A DNA stretch of 48,076 bases from IMG/VR virus record IMGVR_UViG_3300008117_002898, positions 1-48,076 of that record; one strand, written 5' to 3'. Shown piece by piece: positions 4,428 through 42,407 of the stretch. A model generated the notes under the pieces. That model was not told the origin of the DNA. It saw only the letters and a program-made list of their open reading frames with translations, and made no database searches. Source of the stretch: a virus. The translations under genes and the position numbers were made by a program. The first letter of the stretch is position 1; each line of letters starts with the position of its first letter.

Positions 4428-4473
4428 GCGGGCCATAAACCGCAACATGGGTGTTTGTCAGCCGCAAATGACA
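4428..4473 (+). promoter_or_regulatory. Two tandem RNA hairpins with 8-nt loops; candidate DNA-polymerase autoregulatory operator
   Basis: Hairpin 1 is GCGG-(GCCATAAA)-CCGC at 4428-4443. Hairpin 2 is TGTCA-(GCCGCAAA)-TGACA at 4456-4473 and ends one base before the AAGGAG site (4475-4480) of the DNA polymerase gene. Both loops are 8 nt and agree as GCCRYAAA. In T4, gp43 represses its own translation by binding a 5-bp-stem, 8-nt-loop hairpin beside its ribosome binding site. The size and position here match that design; binding itself is inferred. Confidence 0.5.
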
Positions 4474-4484
4474 TAAGGAGAGAT

Positions 4485-7111: not shown

Positions 7112-7906
7112 ATGAAATTTATTATTGCAGGTTACGGATTTGTAGGTAAGGCAGTTAAGGCTGCTTTAAAATACACTTATGAAACTGAAGTAGTTGATCC
7201 AGCACTCACTGAAGTTAAAATTTCAGATCATTATGATGCCGCTGGAATTATTATCTGTGTTAATACCCCTAGTGACGATAATGGGGATTGTGATATCAGC
7301 AACGTGTTAGACGTTATTAGTCAAACACCAGTTCATATGCCAATCTTAATTAAAAGCACAGTAAGTCCAGACAAACTTAAAGCTATTACAGAAAAATATT
7401 CTGAACATAGCATTGCGTATAGTCCAGAGTTTTTAAGAGCAAAGTCAGCAATTGAAGATTTTGCCAAGCAAAAGTATATGATTATTGGCGGTGATGATCC
7501 GTTGGATTTTTGGCACTGTGCTTTTAGGGGAGCAATGCCAAACTTGTTAGTAGTACACAAGTGTTCAATTGAAGAAGCTGCAATTATCAAATACGCAACA
7601 AATAGTTTTTTAGCAATGAAAGTATCGTTCTTTAATCACATATATGATATATGTGAGGCAAGTGGACATGACTTTGATATTGTTAGACACTTAATTTGCC
7701 AAGATAACCGAATTGGCACAAGTCACAGCATGGTTCCCGGACCTGATGGTGAAAGAGGTTGGGGAGGGCATTGCTTTCCAAAAGATACATCGGCGTTTAT
7801 TCATTACATTAATTCATTAGATCAAAAATTTGATTTATTGGAAACGGTAATAGAGTACAACAAAAAAGTAAAAAAAGGTGTTGACACAAGCGTCAATATC
7901 AGTTAA
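7112..7906 (+). CDS. ugd: UDP-glucose/GDP-mannose 6-dehydrogenase family protein, short form
   Basis: The family oxidises the C6 hydroxyl of a nucleotide sugar to a uronic acid with two NAD+. The N-terminal Rossmann motif is GYGFVG (residues 7-12). The substrate-side pattern continues with CVNTPS, KSTVSP, YSPEFLR and the helix KYATNSFLAMKVSF. The catalytic Cys is C221 in GGHCFPKD. The protein is 264 residues, while cellular enzymes have about 400-450, so the C-terminal UDP-binding domain is missing and sugar choice may differ. It starts 1 nt after the polymerase stop, so it belongs to the same transcript. It could supply an activated sugar acid for glycosyltransferases in this window. Confidence 0.85.
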   Translation: MKFIIAGYGFVGKAVKAALKYTYETEVVDPALTEVKISDHYDAAGIIICVNTPSDDNGDCDISNVLDVISQTPVHMPILIKSTVSPDKLKAITEKYSEHSIAYSPEFLRAKSAIEDFAKQKYMIIGGDDPLDFWHCAFRGAMPNLLVVHKCSIEEAAIIKYATNSFLAMKVSFFNHIYDICEASGHDFDIVRHLICQDNRIGTSHSMVPGPDGERGWGGHCFPKDTSAFIHYINSLDQKFDLLETVIEYNKKVKKGVDTSVNIS

Positions 7907-27961: not shown

Positions 27962-28272
27962 CATCCAAGAAACTTTCAAAGGATGTTATTGAACGATGGC
28001 CCGAAGTATTTGAAGGGATACAGTTAAATGTAGTTCCCTTAAAATACTTACACTCTATTCAGATACATTTTAAAGATAAGAAGACCTGGGACATTGATAT
28101 TTCTTCTAAAAAAGAAGAAATGACTTGGCAAGATGTTGAGAAAAATATTCACGAATTATTTGCACAATATCAAGACGAAATTGAAAATGTAGATTTTAAA
28201 CTTAATACTGAAAAATTAAAAAGTGATATAATCCAAGGTACTTCAAAATTCCTTAAGAAAAGAAAATTATAA
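27958..28272 (+). CDS. Small phage protein
   Basis: 104 residues, ATGA overlap. KKLSKDVIERWPEVFEGIQLNVVPLKYLHSIQIHF and DVEKNIHELFAQYQDEIENVDF fit an alpha/beta protein. Lys-rich end. No family recognised. ATG of thyX overlaps its stop by one base (TAATG). Confidence 0.6.
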   Translation: MTSKKLSKDVIERWPEVFEGIQLNVVPLKYLHSIQIHFKDKKTWDIDISSKKEEMTWQDVEKNIHELFAQYQDEIENVDFKLNTEKLKSDIIQGTSKFLKKRKL

Positions 28273-28937
28273 TGAAAGTTAAATTAATATCATCAAGTAA
28301 AGCCAGTAGAGAAATGGTAAATGAAGGTATTTACGATGCACAAGAGCTTATTGCCTTTTGTGCAAGAGTAAGTAACCCAGCTAATCAATTCAATACAGAA
28401 ACTAGTGAGAAATTAATCAACTATCTAATCAAGCATCAACATTGGAGTCCGCTCGAAATGGTAAGTGCTTGTTTAGAAATTGAAACCACACGTGATATTG
28501 CAAGGCAAATTTTAAGACACCGTAGTTTTAGTTTCCAAGAGTTCAGTCAACGCTATGCGGATCCTACTAAAGACTTGGACTTTGTCATACGTGAGGCACG
28601 TCTGCAAGATACAACAAATCGTCAAAATTCTGTTGTAACTGATGACGTTGAATTGCAAGCGTGGTGGGATGCCAAGCAAAAGTTTATTATTGAAACTGTT
28701 AAACAAACATACGCAGAAGCTATTTCTAAAGGTATTGCTAAAGAACAGGCTCGTGCTATTTTACCAGAAGGTAATACAGTAAGTCGCTTGTACATGAACG
28801 GTACTTTGCGTAGTTGGATTCACTTTATTGAATTGCGAAGTGCAAACGGCACACAGTTAGAACATCAGCTGGTTGCTCGCGAGTGCGGACGAGTCATTGC
28901 AGAAGTGTTTCCAATGGCATCAAACCATATTAATTAG
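28272..28937 (+). CDS. thyX: FAD-dependent thymidylate synthase ThyX
   Basis: 221 residues. ThyX makes dTMP from dUMP with FAD and methylene-tetrahydrofolate. The ThyX motif RHRx7S is R82-H-R84 to S92 in RHRSFSFQEFSQRY. ISFCARVSNP-like and LIKHQHWSPLEMV segments and the C-terminal LRSWIHFIELR and EHQLVARECGRVI match the family. It is the last gene of the plus-strand block. Its stop overlaps the stop of the opposite-strand gene. Confidence 0.95.
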   Translation: MKVKLISSSKASREMVNEGIYDAQELIAFCARVSNPANQFNTETSEKLINYLIKHQHWSPLEMVSACLEIETTRDIARQILRHRSFSFQEFSQRYADPTKDLDFVIREARLQDTTNRQNSVVTDDVELQAWWDAKQKFIIETVKQTYAEAISKGIAKEQARAILPEGNTVSRLYMNGTLRSWIHFIELRSANGTQLEHQLVARECGRVIAEVFPMASNHIN

Positions 28938-30094
28938 TTGTAAGAGTTATCGCCGGGCCACAGAGGCAACTTTGTTCCCGGCGACCTTTTGGGTATTTTA
29001 CTGTCAGCACTACTTACACAACTAGAAGTAATGCATGATTTAGGACCATCAAATAAGTTAAATCCAGTTTCAATATTGCCTAATGGAGCGTCATGACAAC
29101 TATAGCTACGTTTGATACTGCCGTCAGGTTCACGTATAATAATACTACGGTATCCGCTTGAACATTCCCAATCTTTAAATTTATTAAAGTTAAATGCATT
29201 AAATCGTTCAGCTTGATCCATGTACCAAACTTTTTTATTTTTGTCCACAAACTCTACTTGAAAGTGTTGCGGGATAGTATCTTGTGAATATATAGGATCT
29301 GGAACTTTCTTAAATGTGGGTTCTGGTCTAACTACTAACTTAGCTTCTGCTGCCTTTGCTTCTGTATAGCCACGTTGCGGCATTCCGTTGTGTAATACTT
29401 TAAGCATTTCTGGAGTATACCCATCAACTACACGACTAGCAGTGGGATCACTTTGAGGCTTTAATGTTACATTAATTCCACGATTGTGAAAGTATAATGC
29501 GTTCTCATAATCTTTATCAAACCATTCAGGAACCATTACCATGTTAATAGTTACTTGAACATCATGTTGCTGACATAATTCTAATTTATCAGCAAACTCA
29601 CTCATTTTTTCTTTAGTATTAACGTGTTCAGTATGCAGGCTAGCAGTGATACTTGCTCTATGAAATTTACTAACTGCCTTACAATATTCATCTCGATGCC
29701 ATGCTAAACTACGACTCATATTCGTTGTCATATGTACACTAGTATAGTTTGTGTTTTCTGAATCATTGTTTAAGTGATTCAAAATGTCAATATAACCAGG
29801 ATGAAACGTGGGTTCGCCGCCACTTAAACTAAAATGGAAACTATTAAATCCTCGGTCACGAGCTTGACGTTTAATCTCGTCAACAGTCTTTAAACACAGC
29901 TCAGTTGGTCTATGATCTTTTTTATCGCTTCGTGCGTAAGGCCAGCAGTAACTACACTTATAATTACAGAATCTGCCTAACAGCCAACTTACTGTGAATA
30001 AGTCTCTATAAAGCATTGTACGTTGTCCAACACGTACTATATCGTCATAGGGTATTTGTGTAAAGTCGTATGCAGATGTTTTTAAATCACTCAT
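28934..30094 (-). CDS. Radical SAM protein with C-terminal Cys-rich (SPASM/twitch-like) region
   Basis: 386 residues from ATG at 30094, whose first base overlaps the upstream stop. A GTG at 30109 in frame would add five residues. The [4Fe-4S] motif is C43-x3-C47-x2-C50 and GGEP is at 92-95. The C-terminal half has further Cys residues (DWEC, SYSC, KSCITSSC) that could bind an auxiliary cluster. Such enzymes often modify peptides or proteins. It is the last gene of the minus-strand operon. Substrate unknown. Confidence 0.85.
   Translation of the reverse strand: MSDLKTSAYDFTQIPYDDIVRVGQRTMLYRDLFTVSWLLGRFCNYKCSYCWPYARSDKKDHRPTELCLKTVDEIKRQARDRGFNSFHFSLSGGEPTFHPGYIDILNHLNNDSENTNYTSVHMTTNMSRSLAWHRDEYCKAVSKFHRASITASLHTEHVNTKEKMSEFADKLELCQQHDVQVTINMVMVPEWFDKDYENALYFHNRGINVTLKPQSDPTASRVVDGYTPEMLKVLHNGMPQRGYTEAKAAEAKLVVRPEPTFKKVPDPIYSQDTIPQHFQVEFVDKNKKVWYMDQAERFNAFNFNKFKDWECSSGYRSIIIREPDGSIKRSYSCHDAPLGNIETGFNLFDGPKSCITSSCVSSADSKIPKRSPGTKLPLWPGDNSYN
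28950..28990 (+). terminator. Terminator-like hairpin for thyX, inside the opposite gene
   Basis: TCGCCGGG (28950-28957) and CCCGGCGA (28977-28984) form an 8-bp GC-rich stem, with an inner 5-bp stem (ACAGA / TTTGT, one GU pair). CCTTTT follows on the plus strand. It lies 13 nt after the thyX stop and within the last codons of the minus-strand gene, so no separate intergenic terminator exists. Confidence 0.6.
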
Positions 30095-30558
30095 TAAGAT
30101 TGAATCCACATAACTTTGGGTTTTGTTTCTACAGCATTTTCAAACACTTTCATGTCAACGTGTCTAGCCATAACAGCTTCATATTTGCTTTTATCAGAAC
30201 TTTTGGGAGCGCATAGTCCACAACCACAAGTGTGTTTGGGACATATAATTGTTGGCATTGTACCAGCTTTTAAATGCTCTTCTAATTCTTTTAGAATTTT
30301 GTCGCCTTCGCTTAACTTACCAATTGGTCCGCGGGTTTGACCAAATTGTGCTTGGCATGTTTGATGATGGAATACACTATCAGTTTGTTGTTCAATGTGC
30401 ATAAAGAACCAATTGACGCTACAATGCCAACCTTTAAATTCTCTAAAATCTACAAACTTGCTTTTTCTATCAACACCATCTTGACTTAGACACATGGTTC
30501 TACTACCACAGCACGGTCTACCTATTTTTAGACCCAATTCTTTCTTTTCTTCACTCAT
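30094..30558 (-). CDS. Cys-rich C-terminal part of a radical SAM protein, separate ORF
   Basis: 154 residues, no radical SAM core. Cys residues are grouped (RPCCGSRTMC, GWHC, TCQAQFG, ICPKHTCGCGLC) like an auxiliary-cluster (SPASM/twitch) domain. The gene upstream is a radical SAM core that lacks this part, and the ATGA overlap joins them. The related gene at 28934-30094 has core and tail in one chain. The two may be a split enzyme, or one gene broken by a shift; the -1 frame relation is consistent with either. Confidence 0.7.
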   Translation of the reverse strand: MSEEKKELGLKIGRPCCGSRTMCLSQDGVDRKSKFVDFREFKGWHCSVNWFFMHIEQQTDSVFHHQTCQAQFGQTRGPIGKLSEGDKILKELEEHLKAGTMPTIICPKHTCGCGLCAPKSSDKSKYEAVMARHVDMKVFENAVETKPKVMWIQS

Positions 30559-31265
30559 GCTGCTTGTACCTTTTTAGTGTTATTTGACCAATAATCTTTC
30601 ATCCACTGTAACTGTTCTTCAGTGTATTGATGTGCAAAATTGCTTTTACTGTCTGGTTCTTCGCCAATAATACGTGGAACATATTTTATATCGTTGTCAT
30701 CTAAAAATTCACATAGCTCAACACATTCGTCAAAGTATGCGGCATGAAACATCACATTGATACTGATACTACATTTATTAGCAGGGCCTTCTTTATGAAA
30801 CTGAACCATACGATCTCTGACTTGTTGTTTAAGTGTGTCATCAGCCTCTGCATGGTAACTAACTGTTATGTGTCCAAAATTTTCCATAACTTTCTGAGCC
30901 ATTTTTTTACTCATTGCCCCATTGCTAGTAAGAGCAAAATTACACTCGTACTTGTCTTTATATTTGGTCTCGTATGCTTCTTTGAGGTACTTGGCAAAGG
31001 CAATAAAATTTGGATTTACTGTTGGTTCACCGCCAGTAAAACTAACACTTGCCCTCTTGTAATCTCTATAGGTCATGTACAAATTTACATACTCCAACAT
31101 AAAATCTGCATTTTTGATTAATTCTTCTAACGTGGCATGTGGGCTAAAATTGTCATGCCTATGAGCTGGACAATAACTGCAATCGTAATTACAGCGTCGA
31201 CCAATATCCCAAGTTACTTGGAATACATTGCCATCAAGCAAATCAACTGTATCAAAACTAGCCAT
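30555..31265 (-). CDS. Radical SAM core protein, lacks C-terminal cluster domain
   Basis: 236 residues. The cluster motif is C25-x3-C29-x2-C32 (GRRCNYDCSYCPAH) and GGEP at 79-82 (FTGGEPTVN). NALTSNGAM and HITVSYHAEADDTLKQQV match the SAM barrel. It ends at the last barrel helix (YTEEQLQWMKDYW), then stops. The following ORF gives a matching Cys-rich tail. A run ACTAAAAAGG near the end could allow a -1 slip; weak. Overlaps the gene upstream by one base. Confidence 0.8.
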   Translation of the reverse strand: MASFDTVDLLDGNVFQVTWDIGRRCNYDCSYCPAHRHDNFSPHATLEELIKNADFMLEYVNLYMTYRDYKRASVSFTGGEPTVNPNFIAFAKYLKEAYETKYKDKYECNFALTSNGAMSKKMAQKVMENFGHITVSYHAEADDTLKQQVRDRMVQFHKEGPANKCSISINVMFHAAYFDECVELCEFLDDNDIKYVPRIIGEEPDSKSNFAHQYTEEQLQWMKDYWSNNTKKVQAA

Positions 31266-32563
31266 TAAATATAATCCTTAAACTTTGGTTCTACATCGCA
31301 CAAATTTTCTTGACGAATATTGTCTAATTGCTGTGTGTATTTTATAAATTCATTCCAGTGTGTATCATAATAATTATCGCTGTTCATATAACTTGTTACG
31401 CCTTTAGAAATATCTTCTGCTTGTTTAATTACATGCGCAGGATAATTATTATCTTTTACCCATTGAACAAACTCAACAAACTTAACAGTGACATCTTTTT
31501 TGTATTGTTCTGGAAGGACACGTACATTTAAATGTTTTGGATGATGTGCAACATGATGTGTGATAATTGGGCGTTTTTGTGTGAAGTTTATTTTCTTTAA
31601 ACCGCTTTCTGTTAATTTCCATTTCATAAAATCAATCATATGATTAACATTATACGCTGTTACTGTGAACGCAAGCCAACCAAAAATATTATCTGGCAAT
31701 TGATCAACCTTGTGTAAATTATCTAGTGTCTTTTGCCACTTAGCAGGATGTCGTTGATATTCTTGCATTGCACCCATACCATCAACACTTGCACCAACAC
31801 GAACTTGTTTAAAACTTTTCCATAAATTTGTAACACGAGTAGGAAGTGTACTCATGTTGGTATTGTACTCAATAATAATATGTTTTGCAGCATCTTTTTC
31901 AACACAACGTTCTAAGAAATCATAATGACGTTCAATTAGCATGGGTTCACCTCCCGCAAAATATACGTGTTGGATATTATGTATGTTTGCCTCAAGTTGT
32001 TCCCAAAATGGTTCGTATTCTGGCCAGTCAAAAGCTGGAACATTCCCGTCAACAATTTCCATTATTCCGCCAGTATCTTTAAATTTATTACTGCCAGTTA
32101 ACTTAATCCAATCATCGTACCATGCATTACTATCTGTTGGGCCGCACATACGACATTTTAAATTACAAAAATTTCCAAATCTTAAATCATAATAAACTAC
32201 AGGAAAGGTTTCAGTGGATATACTACCATCTTCAGCAGTTTTACTACGTGCTTCGTCGATAGTTAACTTCCATTGTTCATTTTCGTATGTGCGTCTGCTA
32301 ACTAACCCACTTGTTTCTTCGTTTTTACATCGTCCACATTCTTCGTTCCACACACCATTTAACATATTAAGACGAATTGTTTTCATCATACTGTTGTTAC
32401 GTGCAAGGTCTAAATTATCTTTGCCAGCGTTAAATGCAGTGCCATCATCCTTGCGTATTACACCTTGATTTTTAGTCACATTTGCTTGACAACAAACTCG
32501 CATATCACCGTTTGCACGAATAGCTTGGAAGTTCCAAGGGATTGGGCAAAATGTATTACTCAT
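31265..32563 (-). CDS. Twitch-domain radical SAM protein
   Basis: 432 residues. An N-terminal module FCPIPWNFQAIRANGDMRVCC (C6, C24, C25) and ECGRC (C76, C79) precede the core. The core motif is C133-x3-C137-x2-C140 (FCNLKCRMCGP), and FAGGEPML follows. This order, cysteines before the SAM core, is seen in the twitch-domain radical SAM family of marine phages and bacteria; substrate not established. It is paralogous to the gene at 33410-34828. It overlaps the QueC-like gene by 4 nt. Confidence 0.85.
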   Translation of the reverse strand: MSNTFCPIPWNFQAIRANGDMRVCCQANVTKNQGVIRKDDGTAFNAGKDNLDLARNNSMMKTIRLNMLNGVWNEECGRCKNEETSGLVSRRTYENEQWKLTIDEARSKTAEDGSISTETFPVVYYDLRFGNFCNLKCRMCGPTDSNAWYDDWIKLTGSNKFKDTGGIMEIVDGNVPAFDWPEYEPFWEQLEANIHNIQHVYFAGGEPMLIERHYDFLERCVEKDAAKHIIIEYNTNMSTLPTRVTNLWKSFKQVRVGASVDGMGAMQEYQRHPAKWQKTLDNLHKVDQLPDNIFGWLAFTVTAYNVNHMIDFMKWKLTESGLKKINFTQKRPIITHHVAHHPKHLNVRVLPEQYKKDVTVKFVEFVQWVKDNNYPAHVIKQAEDISKGVTSYMNSDNYYDTHWNEFIKYTQQLDNIRQENLCDVEPKFKDYI

Positions 32564-33417
32564 TTAGGTATCCTAGCTACCATGTCAGGAATTTCTGTTT
32601 CTGCCCAGGAACGTTCTTGACACCAAAAACACTTGCCACAAGTTGGAACATAAATTCCTGGCTTATAATCTATAAGGCTTGGGAAAGTCTGACTAACAAT
32701 TGCATCAGATAAATCGCCCTCGCAACTACGTGTAGTTTCATATAAATCTACAATTTTAAACAAGTAATATTGTGCAAGTATCCAGGATTTGTCAACTAAC
32801 AAAAATGGTAAGAATATGTGAGATCCATTTCTTTTTAAAATTAGTAGAGGTTCTTTTTTATCAGTGTCAATTCGACGTGCTGGCGGTTCACCGTCAATTG
32901 TATAGCTTAACGGATTGTGAGTAGTTGCATTAAATATAGCATCAAATTTATATTTGAAAATACAATATGAATTAAATTCATCAATTTGAATTTGATCACC
33001 AGCTCGTAGCACACCTTTAGACATAATAATTTTACCCATTGCACCATCTTCAATTCCTGGAGCAATAAAATTAGTATGACGATTTTCAATTATATTAGGA
33101 AACATTGATTTTAATTTATTAAAAACTTCTTCCGATATAGGTTCTTGCCAAGGTCTAGTATCCCAACAACGTATATGCGTGATAACATCTATTTTACAAT
33201 CTAGTTTATTATCTTGAATAATTTTACATAACAAGAATGTGAGACAAGCACTATCTGCTCCACCTGATAAATTCACTCCAATTTTTTTCCAAGAAGTAGA
33301 AACTGGGATATCTAATCCGTTAATACGGTGTAATTCTAATTTTGGTAATTCACCACCGTACATTGCTTTGTACTGTGATTTCATTTTGTTATACAAACTA
33401 TTACTAAATTCAAACAT
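32560..33417 (-). CDS. QueC-like PP-loop ATPase
   Basis: 285 residues. The PP-loop SGGADS (51-56) is the ATP-pyrophosphatase motif of QueC and related enzymes. A C-terminal cysteine set, C232 then C260-x2-C263-x2-C266 (TCGKCFWCQER), resembles the QueC zinc site, though the spacing (27 residues) is longer than usual. QueC makes preQ0 from 7-carboxy-7-deazaguanine. It would complete the pathway with FolE, QueE and DpdA. It lies between two radical SAM genes, so a role on that pathway instead is possible. Substrate choice is not certain. Confidence 0.7.
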   Translation of the reverse strand: MFEFSNSLYNKMKSQYKAMYGGELPKLELHRINGLDIPVSTSWKKIGVNLSGGADSACLTFLLCKIIQDNKLDCKIDVITHIRCWDTRPWQEPISEEVFNKLKSMFPNIIENRHTNFIAPGIEDGAMGKIIMSKGVLRAGDQIQIDEFNSYCIFKYKFDAIFNATTHNPLSYTIDGEPPARRIDTDKKEPLLILKRNGSHIFLPFLLVDKSWILAQYYLFKIVDLYETTRSCEGDLSDAIVSQTFPSLIDYKPGIYVPTCGKCFWCQERSWAETEIPDMVARIPK

Positions 33418-34828
33418 TAAAGATCTCCTTCATTTCTGGGAAAGTTTCTGCAAAGCTAATGCCACGCTGTGCATCACATAAATCTAAAAATTCTTTCATT
33501 TCTGGAAGTCTAATGGTCCAATCTTCGCTTTCCATAAATTTTAACATACCGTCTAATCGACTAATACCATAACTAGCATTGCGCCATTGCTCGTAAGTCA
33601 CTTTACCCTTGTGCCATTCTGGTACACCTTTTTCCCAATTAGCTTCCCACCATGGATAAAATTCTTCGTACTTCTTGCGGCATTCTTCTTTAAACCATTT
33701 AGGCAAAACTTTTACATTCAAGTGAGGTGGATGATAAACAAAATGATAATTTACTCCACCAGCGCCAAATGGCCACATATTAATTTTCTTAAAACCTTGT
33801 TCTAATTTCCATTTAATAAAATCAGGTATGTAGTAGATATTTAGAGCTTGGACTGCACACGCAACCGTAACTTCTGTATTGCTTGGTGTTTGTGTATCTA
33901 AAATATGAAATACTTCAGCAGTCCTTGACCACTTGCTAGGATAACGAATGTAATCATTCATTTCCTCAATACTGTCTACACTATAATGAAAACGCACAAG
34001 TTTAAATTGTTTCCACAAATCAAACAAGTCATCTCTCCATTCTACACCGTTACTGTTATAACGCAATTCTAAATTTTTTGCATGTCCTTGACGAATACAC
34101 TCTTCCAAAATTTCATAGTGTTCTTCAATAATTAAACTCTCCCCGCCTGCAAAATACAACTGTTGCATATTAGGAATTTGTTCATAAAACTGCTGCCAGA
34201 ATATAGGATTATTTTTATGCCAGTTATAACTGCTACCATTTGTACTACCTTTATTTGACCACAACGTAGTTTGTTTTAATGTTGAATTTTTAATCTTTGG
34301 ATGTATTGCTTGCCAATCTTTAATCCATCCACTACTATCATGAGGACTGCACATTACACATGCTAACTGACATTTTGTTCCAAATCGCAAATCAATATAA
34401 TTGAGTTTAGGAGGAACAGAACCATCTTCAGCAGTGTCGGCTACCAGTTGATTTAAATCTGTACGTTCCATCCAATATGCAGTTTCCCACATACGTTTGC
34501 TATTATGTCCAGCTGCTTCTTCTTTGTAACATTTAATACAACTAGGAGGTTGTTCGCCGTTAAGCATTTGCTTACGGACATTGCGCATATAGGTGCTGTT
34601 CCAACTTGATTGAAAATCGCTAACATTTAGATTAGCAGGTTTGCCTTCTTCTGTTTTTAGAATTCCAACCATACCCCCATGTTGTTTGTCGTTGGTTGGA
34701 CCAACACTACTTGCATTGGCCGTACAGCATACTCGCATACTTCCATCTGGACGTGTACTTAAATGCACCCACGGCAAAATGCAAAAAGTTTCTGATGGAA
34801 GTTTAGTTGTTGGCTTAGGTGTTGTCAT
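33410..34828 (-). CDS. Twitch-domain radical SAM protein, paralogue of the 31265 gene
   Basis: 472 residues. N-terminal FCILPWVHLSTRPDGSMRVCC (C16, C34, C35) and SCIKC (C97, C100) precede C153-x3-C157-x2-C160 (KCQLACVMCSP). FAGGESLI is the GGEP equivalent with Ser in place of Pro. It shares the N-terminal module and core with the gene at 31265-32563, but is longer and its core differs. The two are likely consecutive or alternate steps of one process. It overlaps its neighbours by 8 and 14 nt. Confidence 0.85.
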   Translation of the reverse strand: MTTPKPTTKLPSETFCILPWVHLSTRPDGSMRVCCTANASSVGPTNDKQHGGMVGILKTEEGKPANLNVSDFQSSWNSTYMRNVRKQMLNGEQPPSCIKCYKEEAAGHNSKRMWETAYWMERTDLNQLVADTAEDGSVPPKLNYIDLRFGTKCQLACVMCSPHDSSGWIKDWQAIHPKIKNSTLKQTTLWSNKGSTNGSSYNWHKNNPIFWQQFYEQIPNMQQLYFAGGESLIIEEHYEILEECIRQGHAKNLELRYNSNGVEWRDDLFDLWKQFKLVRFHYSVDSIEEMNDYIRYPSKWSRTAEVFHILDTQTPSNTEVTVACAVQALNIYYIPDFIKWKLEQGFKKINMWPFGAGGVNYHFVYHPPHLNVKVLPKWFKEECRKKYEEFYPWWEANWEKGVPEWHKGKVTYEQWRNASYGISRLDGMLKFMESEDWTIRLPEMKEFLDLCDAQRGISFAETFPEMKEIFNV

Positions 34829-35945
34829 TTATAAATTTAATCTCGTTTTGATATGCTTTGTTATTGCCGCATGTTCTTATACATTTTTCAATATGCATTT
34901 TATGTGAAGGATCCCAACTTGCTTCAAGTAGACTAGAAAACCACTCATGCGCCAGTATATCATCAATACTGTTATTAACTAGGCTATTCCATCCTGGTTT
35001 GAAGTCTTTAGTTAGTTTTAAAAAGTCATCTCTATGAGTATGGGCCAATTGCCATAGGAAACAACACGGCCACATGGTCAAGTCTGATGCTATAAAAATT
35101 TCACCTTCATGTACTAATTTACAAACTATAGAATCTAAAATTCTTTTTTTCGTTGATTCATCATTTACTACATTTCCAGTAGACTTTCCTATTATTGGAA
35201 CAAATCCTGTAGATGTAGAATATGTATTAATAAACTGTTGTAATTCCTTAACTTGTTCTATTTTACTATGAGCTTTATCACTTGCTGTTGTAATAACAAA
35301 ATCTTCTTTTATTGTTTTTTTAGTTGTTGAGTCTTTTTTAGGCAACTTAGCAACCCAGTCATTAATAGTGTTGCGAATACCTGTTCTAGTAGCAAATTTA
35401 AAACCTAATCTACTAGCAGCCTGTCGTGCAATTTCTAATTCGTGTTCGTTATGATCAAACACAATAAACATCCAAGTAGCTGATGCAAATCCTTTTCCGC
35501 CCATAGCATATGCAGTCATATTTCGTTCAATAACATCAAAAACGGTATTGACTCGATAGATATGATTGGTTTCTTTGTGCCCGTCAACTGCAAATACTAC
35601 ATTAATTAGTTTAGTTTTAGAACTAATTTCCCCTAGTTCTTTCCACCATGCTACTGTTTGATAACCACCGTTAGTACTTATTTGACAATAGCCGTTATGA
35701 TCTGTTAGATATTTTACCATATCTAACATTTCAGGATGTACAACTGGATCTCCTAAAACTCCACAAAATTTAAATTGCTTCTTGGATATTTCTTTACTAG
35801 TTGGAAATAATCGTTTAATATCATTCAATGAAAAAGATTGAATTGTTAGTAGTTCAGGCATTCGTGTGCGTGTACAACCTGGACAGGCAGCATTACAATC
35901 GCTTGTAATTTCTAACTCGATCTTTTTGATATTATCAATGTTCAT
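34815..35945 (-). CDS. Radical SAM protein with C-terminal Cys motif, GGEP-less
   Basis: 376 residues. The motif is C17-x3-C21-x2-C24 (SDCNAACPGCTR). In place of GGEP it has FCGVLGDPVVHPEM, as in the next paralogue. SVHIYRV-like and VFAVDGHKETNHIYR segments match. C-terminal Cys (VCKLV, MWPCCFLW, KCIRTCG) suggest an auxiliary cluster. It shares this plan with the gene at 35942-37105, so it arose by duplication. Product unknown. Confidence 0.85.
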   Translation of the reverse strand: MNIDNIKKIELEITSDCNAACPGCTRTRMPELLTIQSFSLNDIKRLFPTSKEISKKQFKFCGVLGDPVVHPEMLDMVKYLTDHNGYCQISTNGGYQTVAWWKELGEISSKTKLINVVFAVDGHKETNHIYRVNTVFDVIERNMTAYAMGGKGFASATWMFIVFDHNEHELEIARQAASRLGFKFATRTGIRNTINDWVAKLPKKDSTTKKTIKEDFVITTASDKAHSKIEQVKELQQFINTYSTSTGFVPIIGKSTGNVVNDESTKKRILDSIVCKLVHEGEIFIASDLTMWPCCFLWQLAHTHRDDFLKLTKDFKPGWNSLVNNSIDDILAHEWFSSLLEASWDPSHKMHIEKCIRTCGNNKAYQNEIKFINDNT

Positions 35946-37105
35946 TTAAACTGTTCCGCAAAGGCATCATATTTACCACAGGTCTTAGCACATACAGATA
36001 ATTTTCCTTCCGCACAACTGGGCTTGTTCCAGCTATCTGGTATAATCTTTTGAAAATATAGACCGTCTACAATATTCTCTAGAGTATTGATTTTAGCATT
36101 AATACTGTCTTTTCCAACTTGATTTATTGCGTCCCAGATTTGTGTTCCTTCAGAACTATGATACCAAACATACATTTGACCCGCTGTCCAGCAACAAGGT
36201 TGAATAATTCCTTCTGCGCTCACATACACACTTTTTTCTTCAGAAACTTTACAGGTTATGTTTGAAGAATCTAAACTTAATTCCATTTTAGACTTTTTAG
36301 CAGGATCTAAATTAAAACGCTGTGGAGTTTGGATTGCTGTTGCTTCAATTTGTTTAGAAGGAATATACTTAACAGTTTCCTGTTTGCCTAAAACATCACT
36401 TAGTTTATCCAACACCCCATTTCTGTATTTAGGATTAGTCGGTGCTTGTAATAAAGTTGTTGCACCTTTACGATTGGCTGCTTGATGCACTTCTTTTGTA
36501 ACCCCGCTAGTATTACTAAAGAATCTAGCAGACTTTTTAAACTGGAATTTTTCAAAGCCCATTACACGACTTAGTTCTTCAGCAGTTTCAACTTGATGTT
36601 CATTGTGTGCAAAAACAATATAATCCCATCTTGCTCTGCCACCAGCATCAATAAATGCTTGTGCATTTTCTACTATCTTAGACCATACTGTATTTTGTCT
36701 GTATAAATGATTTGTGTCTTCTAATCCATCAATACTGAATACAACGTATGCGTTCTTACCTAACACCCTTGCTAAGTTTGCCCACCACTCAGGCTTTTTA
36801 GCACTGCCGTTTGTATACATTGTAAGATTCATTTTAGGATTGTGTTCTCTAAAATATGCAAACACTTCTAATGTATCTTTGGCCGCAACTGGATCCCCAA
36901 AATTACCGCACATATACATTCTATCTAACTGTGAAATAAATTCAGGTTTAAAAATAGTCTTGCAGTCATCCAAACTTAATTCATTGTCTTTGAGATGTGG
37001 ATTATCTTCACCGCCATTAATATTCCTTGCACACATAGGGCAAGCGGCATTACATGCTTCTGTAATTTCTAAATGAACTGTTTTTAAATCTGAATATCTA
37101 TACAT
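35942..37105 (-). CDS. Radical SAM protein, paralogue with C-terminal Cys motif
   Basis: 387 residues. C18-x3-C22-x2-C25 (EACNAACPMCAR), then MYMCGNFGDPVAAKDTL in place of GGEP, and SIDGLEDTNHLYRQNTVW, shared with the gene at 34815. C-terminal cysteines ITCKV, QPCCWTAG, SCAEGKLSVCAKTCG. The pair could act in turn on one substrate. It starts one base from the small gene upstream. Confidence 0.85.
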   Translation of the reverse strand: MYRYSDLKTVHLEITEACNAACPMCARNINGGEDNPHLKDNELSLDDCKTIFKPEFISQLDRMYMCGNFGDPVAAKDTLEVFAYFREHNPKMNLTMYTNGSAKKPEWWANLARVLGKNAYVVFSIDGLEDTNHLYRQNTVWSKIVENAQAFIDAGGRARWDYIVFAHNEHQVETAEELSRVMGFEKFQFKKSARFFSNTSGVTKEVHQAANRKGATTLLQAPTNPKYRNGVLDKLSDVLGKQETVKYIPSKQIEATAIQTPQRFNLDPAKKSKMELSLDSSNITCKVSEEKSVYVSAEGIIQPCCWTAGQMYVWYHSSEGTQIWDAINQVGKDSINAKINTLENIVDGLYFQKIIPDSWNKPSCAEGKLSVCAKTCGKYDAFAEQFK

Positions 37106-37332
37106 TAAATGTCCATTAATAATCTTATATCTTTTCCAGGACCTACTTTACTAGGCATATCACCGTGTTGTTGGACATACCATTGTATTACGGCTTTGTA
37201 CCAATTTTGACTATTATGATGTGCTTCTTTATTAAACTTATGAATATTGTTACTTGTTGCTTCAAACGTAGATAAGGCTCTTGCTGCCTCTACTTGTAAC
37301 GTTCTCAAATCCAATTCATCTAAGTCTATCAT
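37105..37332 (-). CDS. Small protein, possible peptide substrate or partner
   Basis: 75 residues with no Cys. LDELDLRTLQVEAARALSTFEATSN is helical. HNSQNWYKAVIQWYVQQHGDMPSKVGPGKD follows. It lies between a radical SAM gene and a methyltransferase gene, overlapping them by 1 and 4 nt, so it is co-translated with them. It could be a partner or an acceptor for the modifying enzymes; this is not shown by the sequence. No family recognised. Confidence 0.55.
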   Translation of the reverse strand: MIDLDELDLRTLQVEAARALSTFEATSNNIHKFNKEAHHNSQNWYKAVIQWYVQQHGDMPSKVGPGKDIRLLMDI

Positions 37333-38180
37333 GGTCTTCCAATAAGCATATAACGCTTATACCCTGTTAATTGTAACACACCTTCATACAAAAGTCTAGT
37401 CATTGGAAACTTTTTCTTCATTTCTCCCATGCTGTGTATTGAATTGATATGATCTTCAACTTCATGTAAGTTATTACTTTGAATGACAAATAATGGATCC
37501 GTTTCTAAAGGTCGATTAACAAACTTATGATACCAATCTTCGTGAAAATGTTCTGCGCTAGTATTCACAATTAAATCAGGCGTAGTTTTTTCGTTAATTT
37601 CTTGACCAGTAGTATAATTTTTTATTTTATACTGACAACCTGTTCGATATAGCCAGCTCATATCTGTTAAGTCTAATTCTACAGACTTAACTTGATAGTT
37701 ATTAATAAAATCTATATTAAAGATCTTATCACTAATTTCACATGCATTAGGATCAATATCAACAATTCTCATCTTATCATAAGAGATGTTGGCTATATCA
37801 AAAAACTTACGTAATTGTCCGTACCAGCCAGCTAATAAAAATACAACTTTGAAATCTTTTTGTATTTTTGCCAACTCCGTAACTAACCAAATTTTACTTT
37901 GTACTTGGCCCCTACTAAATGCGTCTTGTAATGCAACTGGGTTATGCCCTTCTCTATAATACTTGTGGAATGTATCTAAAATTTCATTAGGAGCATATTT
38001 ACGCAATGTATTAATAAACTCAACTATCCCAGCACCGTCATTAAATTTTATAATAGGATTGTCTGCATAAATCATATGCATTAGAAAATCTACATATTTT
38101 TTTGACTCTTGATCATTGGCAAACGCAAAATAGTCTTCCAATCCATGTAGCCAACTAATATTATCAGTATTATTTTCCAT
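37329..38180 (-). CDS. SAM-dependent methyltransferase-like protein
   Basis: 283 residues. VVFLLAGWYGQLRKFF, with a glycine-rich loop after a strand, and MRIVDIDPNACEISDKIFN, with acidic residues, fit class I methyltransferase motifs I and II. PDLIVNTSAEHFHEDWY corresponds to motif IV. An N-terminal helical domain of about 105 residues precedes it, perhaps for substrate binding. It is in the minus-strand operon between the small gene and two glycosyltransferases. Substrate unknown. Confidence 0.65.
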   Translation of the reverse strand: MENNTDNISWLHGLEDYFAFANDQESKKYVDFLMHMIYADNPIIKFNDGAGIVEFINTLRKYAPNEILDTFHKYYREGHNPVALQDAFSRGQVQSKIWLVTELAKIQKDFKVVFLLAGWYGQLRKFFDIANISYDKMRIVDIDPNACEISDKIFNIDFINNYQVKSVELDLTDMSWLYRTGCQYKIKNYTTGQEINEKTTPDLIVNTSAEHFHEDWYHKFVNRPLETDPLFVIQSNNLHEVEDHINSIHSMGEMKKKFPMTRLLYEGVLQLTGYKRYMLIGRP

Positions 38181-38859
38181 TACATTCCTTATTAAATTGT
38201 TCAGCTAGCCAATCAAAGTCATTGATTAATTTTAATGCTGTCATGTCGCCTTTATTTGCAATACCGTATCTGGTTCCTGCCTTTGCGCCAGCTAATGCAT
38301 ATTTTCCATATGGTTTGTCTGCGCCCACTGTACACCACGCCTGTAATCTAACATCAGTTTCTTCTGATTTTTGTCTATCAATTACTTTACTAGATAATTT
38401 AACGCATTCTCTAAACGCACTTTTCCAAGTATTAAACTCATCAGTGTTAAAAGCAGTCACATTACTAATTACAGGCACTGCTTTAAAATGCTTACTAATA
38501 CTAGTTGTCATATCTGGCTTGCTAGTATCCATATTAATTGTATCCAATCTAGGCAGAAGTTTTACTCCACCGTTCCCATATTCTAAATAGTTTACAGGGT
38601 TTAAACTTCTCCATACGTGTACAGTTTCTAGCCCACGAGATTCTAGTTTATAATCAAAATCAAAACTATCTAACACTTCTGCATCACCATCAACCACCCA
38701 AATCATTTTTGTAAAACATTTTTTAGCTGCAATGATATGAGCATTGTGTATCCCTTTAACTCCATGAACACGTTTTGTCATAGGAAATCGATTTTTTAAT
38801 TTTAGCCAGTTTGATTCTGCGTTTGGTTCGTTATAACTGATAAAGACGATATCAAACAT
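38170..38859 (-). CDS. GT-A-like glycosyltransferase, short paralogue
   Basis: 229 residues. FDIVFISYNEPNAESNW, FPMTKRVHGVKGIHNAH and WVVDGDAEVLDSF (DxD-like metal site) match the start of a GT-A fold and the next gene. NGGVKLLPR follows. It is clearly a paralogue of the protein at 38859-39773. It may use a nucleotide sugar; the acceptor is unknown. Overlaps neighbours by 11 and 1 nt. Confidence 0.65.
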   Translation of the reverse strand: MFDIVFISYNEPNAESNWLKLKNRFPMTKRVHGVKGIHNAHIIAAKKCFTKMIWVVDGDAEVLDSFDFDYKLESRGLETVHVWRSLNPVNYLEYGNGGVKLLPRLDTINMDTSKPDMTTSISKHFKAVPVISNVTAFNTDEFNTWKSAFRECVKLSSKVIDRQKSEETDVRLQAWCTVGADKPYGKYALAGAKAGTRYGIANKGDMTALKLINDFDWLAEQFNKECNGK

Positions 38860-39773
38860 TACTTGCTCACTATAAATTTATTGGGCATTCTAGGTGGATT
38901 AACATACATGGATTTAAATAGTTTACTTTGTTCGGCAGTAAACATATCTGCCATTTCTAATTCTAATTCGTGTACGAGAGTTTCTCCAATTCCCATAATT
39001 TCATAAGGTAACATTTTATCAGTTACTTTTCCATCATTGTTTTCCCAGTAATTGTTTAACCATTTAAAGTCACGTACATTAACATAATCCCAATCTGTAC
39101 AATTAGTCATGTAGCAACCTTGTCTAGCACCATATATTGCCCAAATGCCATTAGGCACATCTGCACCTATGTGCATCCAGACCATCAAACGTTGAAAATT
39201 CTTCCAGTGAACTTGCTTAACAATATTATCAGCTTTAGATCCCTCAAGCAATCCCATTTTGACACCTTCACGAAAGCCCGCACGCCAGGCTTGCTGTGGG
39301 CTTGCATTATTATGCACGTCACTCATGCATTGTTCCATTTGAATGTAATTAATATCCCAACAAAAATCCACTTGGGTCTTAGCATTATCACTTTCCGCAG
39401 CCTCGTGGGTCTTCATATCTAATACTAATTGCGTGGGCCAACACTTAATACCACCATTACCATATATCAATCCGTTAATAACAGTTTGTGCGCCCCAACT
39501 AATAACACTTTTATCAAGTTCAACGTCATCTTTAAATTCTATAACCTGTTCTAAAAATTCTGGACGTACAATATTGTCCCCGTCAATCACAATTAATCTT
39601 GGAGTACTACACAATCTAGCACAGGCCTTATGTGCTGCATCACTGCCCTCTACCCCGTGTACACGTTTAGCCCAAGGAACTTTTTTTAACAAGTCTGCGT
39701 AATTTTTTTCAGCGTTAGGCTCATCATAACTTAGATATACGATATCACAGTCTATTACTTTTAATGTACTCAT
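38859..39773 (-). CDS. GT-A-like glycosyltransferase, long paralogue
   Basis: 304 residues. CDIVYLSYDEPNAEKNY, WAKRVHGVEGSDAAHKACA, LIVIDGDNIV (DxD-like metal site) and YGNGGIKCWPTQ parallel the shorter neighbour. The shared pattern SY(N/D)EPNAE makes them a paralogous pair. Extra residues at the end lengthen it. Nucleotide sugar and acceptor unknown. Overlaps neighbours by 1 and 4 nt. Confidence 0.65.
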   Translation of the reverse strand: MSTLKVIDCDIVYLSYDEPNAEKNYADLLKKVPWAKRVHGVEGSDAAHKACARLCSTPRLIVIDGDNIVRPEFLEQVIEFKDDVELDKSVISWGAQTVINGLIYGNGGIKCWPTQLVLDMKTHEAAESDNAKTQVDFCWDINYIQMEQCMSDVHNNASPQQAWRAGFREGVKMGLLEGSKADNIVKQVHWKNFQRLMVWMHIGADVPNGIWAIYGARQGCYMTNCTDWDYVNVRDFKWLNNYWENNDGKVTDKMLPYEIMGIGETLVHELELEMADMFTAEQSKLFKSMYVNPPRMPNKFIVSK

Positions 39774-40357
39774 GCTACTAACAACCCATAAGATTTAAAA
39801 TAACCAAAAGTTGAAATGGTAAAAGAATCAATATCTTCTTCTAAACTGGATTTAAAATGTAACTTATTTCCGTCTTTTATATTGGAAACTTGTATGGTAA
39901 TTGTTTTAAGCAAGTAATGGGGGTCTTTTACTGTAGTTAAATAAAAATCAAAAGTTGTAGATGGATTAATTTTAGATATCATAACTTTAGCATCATCACT
40001 TAATAATATTTCCCAACGTTTTTGCTTTTTTTTATGAATGATTGTAAAATCTGTAATACCCTTATCAGTCACTCGAGGGATTTCATAAATCAATGCACTG
40101 GATATTTTAATAGACTCGTCTTTAGTCTGTAATGCATTATCAAATTTAAAATAATCAATATTATATCGACAGTAATCTTTTTTTCCGCTTAAAAAATCAT
40201 GCAATCTAGACTTTGGCACTTCTAAGTATCCACCAGTACTGGGTAAATTAGAAATGCCTGTAATAGTTCCAGCTTCGTCATGCCAAACATACATTGTTTT
40301 AGGTATTTCTGACACTGCTTCTGCTTGTAAAATTTCTTGTAATGTAAGTGTATCCAT
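39770..40357 (-). CDS. Beta-rich protein of unknown function
   Basis: 195 residues. TMYVWHDEAGTITGISNLPS and a series of beta strands (FTIIHKKKQKRWEILLSDDAKVMI, KTITIQVSNIKDGNKLHF) suggest a beta-sandwich. It could be a virion protein or a scaffold for the sugar enzymes beside it. No family recognised. It sits between glycosyltransferase genes. Confidence 0.55.
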   Translation of the reverse strand: MDTLTLQEILQAEAVSEIPKTMYVWHDEAGTITGISNLPSTGGYLEVPKSRLHDFLSGKKDYCRYNIDYFKFDNALQTKDESIKISSALIYEIPRVTDKGITDFTIIHKKKQKRWEILLSDDAKVMISKINPSTTFDFYLTTVKDPHYLLKTITIQVSNIKDGNKLHFKSSLEEDIDSFTISTFGYFKSYGLLVA

Positions 40358-40358
40358 A

Positions 40359-41180
40359 TTAATATCTCAATGTGTTAATAATGTTATTTGTCAAAAAGTC
40401 ATCCTCAGTGTAATGAAATACACCAGTTTGTAAAAAATTACCAATTTTTAACTGTTTATCTTGATTAAAACTAATACCTATTTGATTTATCCAAGACGAA
40501 GGGGGACTGTCCCACCCCTGAATTGCTGGCTTCATGTGTACAAACGATGGAGAAACTTTAGATGTCATTTCGTGTTCTGTTTCCATAAACACTAACGCAA
40601 GTGCCGCATTGACATCCATACTACAAAATCTTTGTTTTGTATTAGGTAAGAATTTATCGTAAAATTGTTCCCAATTTTTAGTAATAACTTCTAACCATTT
40701 ATAAAATTCGTATCCTTGCACTGACTTCTTAAAATAATGAACTCCAGTATATACATTAGGTAGGTTATTTGCAGTAAAAGTTTTTCTGTAATAATCATCA
40801 CTAATTTCTCTACCTTTATAATCTTTTACACACGAAGTAAGACATATTGATTTGTTTTTAAGAAATTCCCACCAATGATCATTCGATGTTAATAACAGCA
40901 TGTCAGTATCATATATCAAACTTTCTTTAAACGGTGTTATATGTGCAATTTTCCACCTGTTTTCAACTTTCCATGTTTTTTCTTTAGCATCATCACCCCA
41001 CGGTATATCTAATATGTGGTCAAATGTGTGTCTGTAATCATCAGGCACTGTATCATTTGTAATTAAACAAGTCTGATTATGCTGTTTATTATTCAATTTG
41101 ATAGATAGTGCAAGAGCATAGGCTTGTGTTACATAGTTTACGTTTGAGTTTTGAGCTAGGAATACATGACCTTTAGACAT
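40359..41180 (-). CDS. GT-A-like (GT8-type) glycosyltransferase
   Basis: 273 residues. The fold begins with NSNVNYVTQAYALALSIKL. LIYDTDMLLL is a DxD-like metal-binding motif typical of GT8. CSMDVNAALALVF, PSFVHMKPAIQGW and VFHYTEDDF fit the acceptor side. Start ATG at 41180. It is a paralogue-like partner of the next gene. Target unknown; perhaps a virion protein or DNA. Confidence 0.65.
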   Translation of the reverse strand: MSKGHVFLAQNSNVNYVTQAYALALSIKLNNKQHNQTCLITNDTVPDDYRHTFDHILDIPWGDDAKEKTWKVENRWKIAHITPFKESLIYDTDMLLLTSNDHWWEFLKNKSICLTSCVKDYKGREISDDYYRKTFTANNLPNVYTGVHYFKKSVQGYEFYKWLEVITKNWEQFYDKFLPNTKQRFCSMDVNAALALVFMETEHEMTSKVSPSFVHMKPAIQGWDSPPSSWINQIGISFNQDKQLKIGNFLQTGVFHYTEDDFLTNNIINTLRY

Positions 41181-42015
41181 TTCGTATAACCCTCAATAAG
41201 CTCTGTTTATTCATAACATGTACGTCTAAAGAATTGGTACTAATTGCAGTGTATTGATCTACTGTATTTTCTTTATTAACTAGCAATGTCATTTTGTTAT
41301 CAGTTGCGCTAATTAAAATGTCTCTGTCTAGGATATAGCTCAATTTATTAGCAATAGGCATGGCAAAATCACCACTAGTAAATCCGTTCATCATATGAAT
41401 AGCAATGCTAAACGCAATATCATTGCGGTAACGTGTACTTGGTACTCTATACAATTTAGCATAGTATACCCAATTATCTTTAATGTGTTCAATTAAAGTG
41501 AAAAAATGTTCAGTTGTTGAATTTTTCCTAAAGAAAAATACAGTAGCCCAATAAAAAGGTATGCTAAACTGATTAATATAATCAAACTCGCTGGTATTTC
41601 TCCACGATGCTAGATCATTATATTTGTTATATATTAAGAAATTATGATTTTGATCCCAGCAATATTCAAGAAATGATGAATTAATTATAAAATCACTATC
41701 TATTACTAGTGTTTCATCATAAGGACTTAGGTAGAAACAATTTGCTCTGTTAGAATTTTTCCATACTAGGTTAGAATAACTATCAGCGCCATCATAAAAT
41801 TTTTTAACTTGCGTGGTTGTGTCAACAGATTCAATGATCTTATCAAATACATCTACATCGTTGGGGAAAGTCTTATATAGCCATTCAGAACTATCAGTTA
41901 CTAGACTAACTGGTTTATTTAAAAAACGTTTTACCCGTTTGGCTGCATATATCGACAACTCCACATAGTCAACTTCAGAATTATTAAAGGCAAATATTAA
42001 TACACCTTGTGTCAT
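41173..42015 (-). CDS. GT-A-like glycosyltransferase
   Basis: 280 residues. NSEVDYVELSIYAAKRVKRF and PVSLVTDSSEW start the fold. TLVIDSDFII is a DxD-like motif. A later RYRNDIAFSIAIHMM is GT8-like, as in the neighbour. It overlaps the next gene by 8 nt and the upstream gene by 4 nt. Sugar donor could come from Ugd. Substrate not known. Confidence 0.65.
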   Translation of the reverse strand: MTQGVLIFAFNNSEVDYVELSIYAAKRVKRFLNKPVSLVTDSSEWLYKTFPNDVDVFDKIIESVDTTTQVKKFYDGADSYSNLVWKNSNRANCFYLSPYDETLVIDSDFIINSSFLEYCWDQNHNFLIYNKYNDLASWRNTSEFDYINQFSIPFYWATVFFFRKNSTTEHFFTLIEHIKDNWVYYAKLYRVPSTRYRNDIAFSIAIHMMNGFTSGDFAMPIANKLSYILDRDILISATDNKMTLLVNKENTVDQYTAISTNSLDVHVMNKQSLLRVIRNV

Positions 42016-42359
42016 AAATCTAACAAACTCTCAACTGATCTACTATTTTTGATTTTTTGATATTGGGTTTGATAACTGTTTGTCGCAGATGCATACACTG
42101 ACAATATGCTGTCTAAAAATTCTGTTAGTGAGGGGATGTCTACTGGAAGATTATTGTCATCAAGAATGACTGAATCAGTATGCTCAAGATCAATTAAAGT
42201 TTTTACAAAATTAATTAATTCTCTAGTGACTTTGAATGTTGCGCCGTTAAAAAAATAAACGCAATTTTGTTGATATTCTTCGTAAATTACCTTTTTTTGA
42301 TTGGCCAACGTTGTTACAAAATTGGCAATTTCAAAGGCTTTTAATAGCTTGTCGTCCAT
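42012..42359 (-). CDS. First gene of the minus-strand operon; small helical phage protein
   Basis: 115 residues. A strong AGGAGGT site (42364-42370) precedes ATG 42359. Helices such as KLLKAFEIANFVTTLANQKKVIYEEY and LINFVKTLIDLEHTD dominate. PSLTEFLDSILSVYASATNSYQTQYQKI ends it. The family is not known. It may be a tail-assembly or regulatory protein; its first place in the operon behind the promoter is notable. Confidence 0.6.
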   Translation of the reverse strand: MDDKLLKAFEIANFVTTLANQKKVIYEEYQQNCVYFFNGATFKVTRELINFVKTLIDLEHTDSVILDDNNLPVDIPSLTEFLDSILSVYASATNSYQTQYQKIKNSRSVESLLDL

Positions 42360-42378: not shown

Positions 42379-42407
42379 ATTATACTATCTTATAATTATC
42401 GTGTCAA
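42379..42407 (-). promoter_or_regulatory. Perfect sigma70 promoter of the radical SAM/glycosyltransferase operon
   Basis: On the minus strand, TTGACA (42407-42402) and TATAAT (42384-42379) with a 17-bp spacer. The start is near 42372, beside AGGAGGT of the first gene. No other good promoter was seen for the 13 kb downstream, although not every gene start was examined for weaker sites. Confidence 0.85.

Follow-up and report, generated by a model that had tools for sequence, protein, structure and literature searches.

A conserved viral operon of predicted radical SAM enzymes, glycosyltransferases and a methyltransferase as a candidate glycan-tailoring pathway

Clusters of radical S-adenosylmethionine (SAM) enzyme genes are known from T4-like phages. 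In the T4-like Campylobacter phages CP220 and CPt10 (PMC2853527, 2010), five clustered radical SAM genes are accompanied by an amidinotransferase and two proteins with nucleotide-diphospho-sugar-transferase domains; the cluster is termed highly unusual and an interchangeable module, and each phage has 11–12 radical SAM genes. A 2020 study places radical SAM cassettes and glycosyltransferases in the host recognition cluster of pelagimyophages (PMC7029224), and a survey of Tasman Sea phages lists both gene types as prominent among the auxiliary genes (PMC7150976). The available portions of these three sources assign no product to the modules. Here we analyze an operon in the window, the 48,076-nt IMG/VR virus record IMGVR_UViG_3300008117_002898, which is a genome fragment. 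The initial annotation had named no described pathway with the composition of this operon. This applies to the exact composition, but modules of radical SAM enzymes and glycosyltransferases in T4-like phages were already described in the 2010 and 2020 reports. Literature searches covering few subscription journals and no preprints returned neither the exact core, promoter, fusions and bacterial counterpart described below nor work on virion glycosylation or DNA hypermodification with radical SAM enzymes.

The analysis defines a conserved core of three radical SAM enzymes (g08, g06 and g01), paired glycosyltransferases (g11 and g12), a methyltransferase (g10) and a 75-residue protein (g09) in several hundred viral contigs. 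In the window these genes belong to 16 minus-strand open reading frames (ORFs) that run from 42359 to 28934 as originally annotated, with adjacent ORFs never more than 1 bp apart. The spacings from g01 to g16 are -16, -4, -1, -4, -8, -14, -4, -1, -4, -11, -1, -4, +1, -8 and -4 bp. The operon is composed of the following features.

42379..42407, minus strand: sigma70-type promoter TTGACA-N17-TATAAT, 12/12 consensus match.
42012..42359, minus strand: g16, 115-residue protein, first gene of the operon, family found in 17 relatives.
41173..42015, minus strand: g15, putative glycosyltransferase (GT8-like), DSD motif, no Pfam match above cut-off.
40359..41180, minus strand: g14, putative glycosyltransferase of the g15 family, DTD motif, clusters with g15.
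39770..40357, minus strand: g13, fast-evolving 195-residue protein, 24–38% identity in most relatives.
38859..39773, minus strand: g12, predicted GT-A glycosyltransferase, paralogue of g11, invariant DGD/DAD aspartates, joined with g11 and g10 into one ORF in relatives.
38170..38859, minus strand: g11, predicted GT-A (GT2-like) glycosyltransferase, from an AlphaFold2 model with a predicted local distance difference test (pLDDT) score of 91 and Foldseek.
37329..38180, minus strand: g10, protein with a predicted class I SAM-methyltransferase fold, AlphaFold2 pLDDT 90 and Foldseek.
37105..37332, minus strand: g09, conserved 75-residue protein, phage-specific part of the core, 28 invariant residues in 17 sequences.
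35942..37105, minus strand: g08, predicted radical SAM enzyme with C-terminal auxiliary cysteines, core triad, PF04055 34.8 bits.
34815..35945, minus strand: g07, predicted radical SAM enzyme, paralogue of g08, CNAACPGC motif, PF04055 25.3 bits (below cut-off).
33410..34828, minus strand: g06, predicted N-twitch radical SAM enzyme, most conserved core enzyme, NF033640 412 bits.
32560..33417, minus strand: g05, predicted PP-loop ATPase, QueC-like in its motifs, SGGADS and a CGKCFWCQER zinc-type motif.
31265..32563, minus strand: g04, predicted N-twitch radical SAM enzyme, NF033640 382 bits.
30555..31265, minus strand: g03, radical SAM half of a split enzyme, PF04055 46.6 bits, corresponding to residues 1–232 of a 393-residue relative.
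30094..30558, minus strand: g02, Cys-rich C-terminal (auxiliary cluster) half, corresponding to residues 251–389 of the 393-residue relative.
28934..30109, minus strand: g01, predicted radical SAM enzyme with C-terminal twitch-type cysteines, core triad, PF04055 60.2 bits.

The gene set is not a chance assembly and the operon is real. The genes were followed from several seeds, those other than g06 being used to avoid the bias of a g06-based choice; the scans yielded 177 viral relatives for g06, 499 for g09, at least 543 for g01 and at least 598 for g11. Among 80 g06-seeded loci the g10 gene is present in 72, and in these g11 lies directly 5′ of g10 or is fused to it in 67, g09 comes next in 59 and g08 is within five genes in 71. 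From g09 as seed, g10 is adjacent in 72/80 loci and g08 lies within 2.5 kb in 58/59; of the 31 loci whose flanks are complete, 27 have g06 proper at a distance of at most 10 kb. Each of the 48 full g01-seeded loci contains further radical SAM genes (median, seven radical SAM stretches per 21 kb), and g06 proper is present in 25/48. This linkage from independent seeds rejects scattered, independent homologues, and the near gap-free spacing, conserved order and purifying selection reject a chance run of ORFs. Fusions in relatives join g12, g11 and g10 (12 ORFs), an N-twitch radical SAM enzyme and a PP-loop protein (5 ORFs), and two radical SAM enzymes (1 ORF), which supports a shared function of the operon genes. 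Accessory radical SAM paralogues are gained and lost, and the number of enzymes outside the conserved g08, g06 and g01 triad (here g04, g07 and g03+g02) differs among viruses. The proposal of a single multi-step synthesis or decoration pathway is thus partly supported: the homologues are linked and, as described below, the cluster sites of the radical SAM genes are intact.

The 61-bp gap between g16 and the next gene upstream holds the operon promoter, which matches the consensus perfectly as first noted, and AGGAGG lies between the promoter and the g16 start. Most relatives have a promoter at the same place (mostly 10–12/12, 17-bp spacer, 17–25 bp from the start), and the bases of the spacer vary although the position is kept. 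A minority, for example L036, L054, L077 and L104, lack it. The conservation of the promoter among relatives exceeds chance.

CxxxCxxC is present in six ORFs (g01, g03, g04, g06, g07 and g08), and five of these pass the PF04055 cut-off; g07 scores 25.3 against 29.5 bits. This assigns the six ORFs to the radical SAM superfamily at the level of sequence. Full-length matches to the N_Twi_rSAM model NF033640 (cut-off 170 bits) were obtained with g04 (381.8 bits) and g06 (412.4 bits); the other four ORFs, g01, g03, g07 and g08, are not members. In 32 relatives g03 and g02 form one protein of ~393 residues, and the split is common to nine close relatives. The initial count of five enzymes is one too low: seven ORFs are predicted to encode six enzymes, with g02 as the split-off C-terminal half of g03. 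CxxxCxxC is intact in 599/617 radical SAM ORFs of the relatives, which rejects loss of the cluster sites. Viral and bacterial copies of g01 and g08 have the same invariant auxiliary cysteines: C316, C338, C359 and C364 of g01 are kept across phage and Bdellovibrionota, and the invariant cysteines of g08 are C18/22/25, C285, C304, C305, C372 and C376. Identity of g06 is 78–84% in most viral relatives. Distant viral relatives keep 79–83% amino acid identity even though ~60% of the four-fold degenerate sites differ, which indicates strong purifying selection on g06. Sequence profiles of g06, g08 and g01 searched against the PDB gave remote matches only (SkfB, NifB, sulfatase-maturating enzyme and viperin), with no hint of the substrate.

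Four GT-A-like glycosyltransferases had been annotated. The modeled structure of g11 matches GT2-type structures with a Foldseek probability of 1.00, the nearest being PGANT9, PcManGT, RmlT, WrtF and SunS, and D57 and D59 of its DxD motif are invariant. The model thus predicts that g11 is a GT2-like GT-A glycosyltransferase; g12 is assigned to the same fold as its paralogue and does not reach the Pfam cut-off. The putative calls for g14 and g15 come from the DxD motif alone, with no family match above cut-off. The annotated methyltransferase is borne out by the g10 model, which matches O-methyltransferases and spermidine synthase with a Foldseek probability of 1.00 and predicts the Rossmann fold of a class I SAM-dependent methyltransferase. 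The PP-loop protein g05 has the QueC-like motifs attributed to it and gave weak PP-loop matches only; it did not match a QueC model and was rejected as QueC. Conservation of g09 spans the whole length of the protein with no leader/core pattern, and its profile matched only repetitive designed proteins and chance entries in the PDB.

The window, a genome fragment, does not contain gp23. The 132-kb record G001 (locus L061), whose proteins are 99–100% identical to those of the window over the common stretch, encodes a gp23-type T4 capsid (E 2e-96), which places the virus in the T4-like supergroup as judged from the capsid sequence of this near-identical record. Eight further large relatives also have gp23 matches, some of which are partial. 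The relatives, large uncultured aquatic phages, reach 383 kb and have 6–19 radical SAM genes per record. Among 50,697 phage records, g10, g11, g12 and g14 of the window have 0 matches, and g06 and g08 have remote matches only (22–24% identity), so no close cultured phage relative was found for these six genes. Two further genes of the window were noted. The DNA polymerase gene at 4455-7110 (plus strand) lies in two frames in the window and is a single 898-residue ORF in G001; the window parts are 100% identical to G001 on either side of a gap in which residues 482–495 are missing, and the broken frame is a small deletion or assembly error. A putative ThyX-like flavin-type thymidylate synthase, named by sequence motifs, is encoded at 28272-28937 (plus strand) and converges on the operon end.

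A counterpart of the core occurs on the chromosomes of some Bdellovibrionota, which are related to predatory bacteria. One scan of bacterial genomes for g06 relatives identified Bdellovibrionota metagenome-assembled genomes (MAGs) with ~55–63% identity on contigs of up to 936 kb. In these loci g06 is accompanied by g08 and g01 and often by g10, g11 or g12, and the g06, g08 and g01 homologues are ~41–69% identical to the viral proteins. In 144 Bdellovibrionia genomes g06 was found in 13, g01 in 15 and g08 in 15, as raw counts that ignore kinship. All 13 g06-bearing genomes also have g08 and g01, g06 never occurs alone, and g06 and g01 lie within a few kb on one contig in 11/13. The 75-residue protein g09 was not found in the triad-bearing Bdellovibrionota loci. 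Nine of the loci contain 70 neighbor proteins, among them 13 GT2 transferases, an epimerase and an AT3/SGNH acyltransferase. In a quick tree of g06 a single supported group holds the viral copies and a few MAG contigs, possibly phage, and the Bdellovibrionota chromosomal copies fall outside this group with no sign of recent exchange. The long branch of the outgroup makes the root of the tree uncertain, and with it the direction of transfer.

Several side observations concern these loci. Positions 10001-21365 of L104 are a phage-like contig with the cassette and g14–g17 homologues that is binned in a Bdellovibrionales MAG. A search of this MAG for gp23 found nothing. The binning hints at a possible Bdellovibrionota host. 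A transposase-like gene lies between g06 and g08 of L091 (11635-12519, minus strand) and is absent from the near-identical L092. Phage and Bdellovibrionota cassettes also have in common a small family of ~290 residues that resembles pyridoxal phosphate (PLP) enzymes (weak Beta_elim_lyase match), with these members.

L044 17579-18463, minus strand: PLP-enzyme-like protein.
L093 2467-3318, minus strand: PLP-enzyme-like protein.
L095 15194-16078, minus strand: PLP-enzyme-like protein.

The genes that accompany the cassette bear on its product. In the two large relatives G003 and G008 the cargo includes UDP-glucose/GDP-mannose dehydrogenases, epimerases, a DegT/StrS sugar aminotransferase, TylF- and Methyltransf_13/14-type methyltransferases, an NTP_transf_3 nucleotidyltransferase, 2-oxoglutarate oxygenases and an arginine deiminase (ADI)/amidinotransferase-like protein. 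Other loci contribute a carbamoyltransferase (seven loci), a B12-binding radical SAM enzyme, Asp/Arg hydroxylases and desaturases. By analogy with aminoglycosides and O-antigens, this cargo reads as equipment for sugar biosynthesis and tailoring. The window has a UDP-glucose-dehydrogenase-like gene outside the operon at 7112-7906 (plus strand; phrog_9148, E 7.6e-41), which is a possible source of sugar nucleotides for it. BtrN, NeoN and BlsE are radical SAM enzymes that act on sugars. AprD4 is another (PMC7941887).

The annotation had left open a modified peptide or protein, a tail-fiber glycan and a DNA base as products. A glycan fits best, given the sugar cargo of the two relatives and the GT2 neighbors in Bdellovibrionota. 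We give an even chance to the operon being a cytoplasmic pathway for glycan assembly and tailoring; the most likely role of its product is to modify the envelope glycan of the host at an early stage of infection. Nucleotide sugars would be transferred by the operon glycosyltransferases, and the radical enzymes would abstract hydrogen from carbons of the sugar or sugar carrier and so dehydrogenate, deoxygenate, epimerize or cross-link it. The PP-loop protein g05 could adenylate a carboxylate, such as a uronate, for subsequent amination, with amidation also possible, and g10 would methylate the glycan. Variable radical SAM, carbamoyltransferase, aminotransferase and oxygenase genes may diversify the product between phages, and an early change of the host envelope glycan might block competing phages or mask the cell. 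A more tentative proposal, to which we assign somewhat less than an even chance, is a radical SAM relay in which the fixed g08/g06/g01 triad and the variable N-twitch enzymes remodel a glycan or glycopeptide. Such a relay would be an undescribed class of pathway in T4-like aquatic phages and Bdellovibrionota that serves the cell surfaces of both.

A number of points weigh against a glycan pathway of this kind. No core enzyme fell into a family whose substrate is known, and the closest named radical SAM models score far below cut-off; twitch/SPASM enzymes act mostly on peptides. Relatives contain no fusion of a radical SAM enzyme with a glycosyltransferase. The cargo profile has a narrow base of two records, and no flippase, polymerase or lipid-linked transferase is among the cargo families listed. 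The Bdellovibrionota locus L091 adjoins MoxR-type AAA and S49 peptidase genes, not sugar genes. Early expression of the operon is a prediction from promoter motifs. Upstream of genes in G001, ATAAATA shows a 38-fold enrichment; it resembles a T4-type late promoter and is likely the late motif of this virus on sequence grounds; TATAAATA was rejected as a late motif, with only 2 occurrences in 132 kb. In the window ATAAATA stands just upstream of the fiber-side genes g17 (43413) and g18 (44920), and none occurs on the minus strand inside the operon. The contrast between these late-type motifs and the sigma70-type promoter of the operon stays suggestive, because the fiber-side ATAAATA is not found in all relatives (upstream of g17 in 6/19 and of g18 in 0/7); upstream of g16 the motif is present in 1/17. 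The replication side of G001 has several 11–12/12 sigma70-type sites on its minus strand.

The same glycan could instead be attached to the tail-fiber or baseplate proteins g17–g20, altering adsorption or shielding the virion. The operon directly follows the fiber genes, and in 12/12 records with a collar-domain fiber gene this gene shares the strand of the cassette and lies 12–34 kb upstream, which puts the cassette in the host-recognition region. Two of the folds nearest to g11, PGANT9 and SunS, are protein or peptide glycosyltransferases, although GT2 fold likeness says nothing about the acceptor, and genes for Asp/Arg hydroxylases are present in phage Mosig as well as in related cassettes. 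Against decoration of the virion, the operon has its own sigma70-type promoter, with late-type motifs at g17 and g18, and the core is found in bacterial chromosomes without fibers. The motif-based prediction of early expression and the bacterial occurrence favor a host-surface glycan, and early modification of the host surface is slightly preferred as it would fit these promoter motifs. Virion decoration is unlikely in our estimate, and it is the strongest of the alternatives.

If the radical SAM/SPASM-type enzymes instead modified a ribosomal peptide, as in a peptide natural product or peptide-derived cofactor, g09 would be the precursor or scaffold and the glycosyltransferases, methyltransferase and PP-loop protein would tailor it. 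The usual substrates of twitch/SPASM enzymes agree with this, as does g09, a small protein encoded within the core and kept in ~500 viral contigs; clusters for ribosomally synthesized and post-translationally modified peptides (RiPPs) also hold hydroxylases and methyltransferases. A convincing precursor is missing; g09 is uniformly conserved with no division into leader and core and was not found with the bacterial triads. No RiPP equivalog cut-off is reached, maturase models scoring below it, and the sugar-nucleotide cargo speaks for another product; a peptide is improbable. Lower still is the chance that a modified DNA base is made and glycosylated, with g05 playing the part of QueC in a deazaguanine pathway. 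T-even phages glucosylate their DNA, g05 has a PP-loop with a CGxCxxCxxR motif and the putative ThyX-like gene adjoins the operon. QueD (PTPS) is present in 5/16 records, beside the cassette in 0/5, and is missing from G001 and 10 others; its lack in 11/16 records and the presence of the core in Bdellovibrionota chromosomes, among GT2 genes, disfavor a DNA product, as does the cellular sugar-biosynthesis cargo. A deazaguanine DNA modification system, which would draw on a QueD/QueE/QueC precursor pathway, was rejected on this lack of QueD; supply of the precursor by the host is possible. The 6–19 radical SAM genes per record and the turnover of accessory paralogues would also suit a general metabolic or fitness module with no single product, whose radical SAM genes are interchangeable auxiliary genes, as has been suggested for the Campylobacter phages (PMC2853527). 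The core g11-g10-g09-g08, g06 and g01 keeps its order, fusions and co-inheritance, and we consider such a module the least probable explanation, with a very small chance of being correct. A tailored glycan on the surface of the host thus stays the preferred product.

The defined core makes the long-standing puzzle of phage radical SAM genes testable, and the triad occurs in Bdellovibrionota, where genetics may be feasible. If the product is a radical-modified surface glycan, the operon would represent new phage–host interaction chemistry and a source of sugar-modifying enzymes.

Each known system matches the cassette in part. QueC and g05 have in common the PP-loop SGGxDS and a CGxCxxCxxR zinc-type motif, and differ in that g05 has no model match and no linked QueD. 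NF033640 is a subfamily model with no stated function, within which g06 is a branch of its own formed by these viruses and Bdellovibrionota. The Bdellovibrionota triad loci lack g09, have a rearranged order and contain fewer genes than the phage cassette. Single radical SAM genes of CP220 are only 22–28% identical to those of the cassette and do not qualify as orthologous enzymes, and the CP220 region has no match to the local profiles of g06 (N-twitch), g09, g10 or g11/g12. The region of Pelagibacter phage Mosig EXVC030M, which holds the closest relative of the module in culture, has no g06-type N-twitch enzyme, g09 or g11/g12, and its g10 relative is 25% identical. Like the cassette, it is a variable island beside the tail fibers that combines radical SAM enzymes and glycosyltransferases with a carbamoyltransferase, a sugar aminotransferase and a g10-type methyltransferase.

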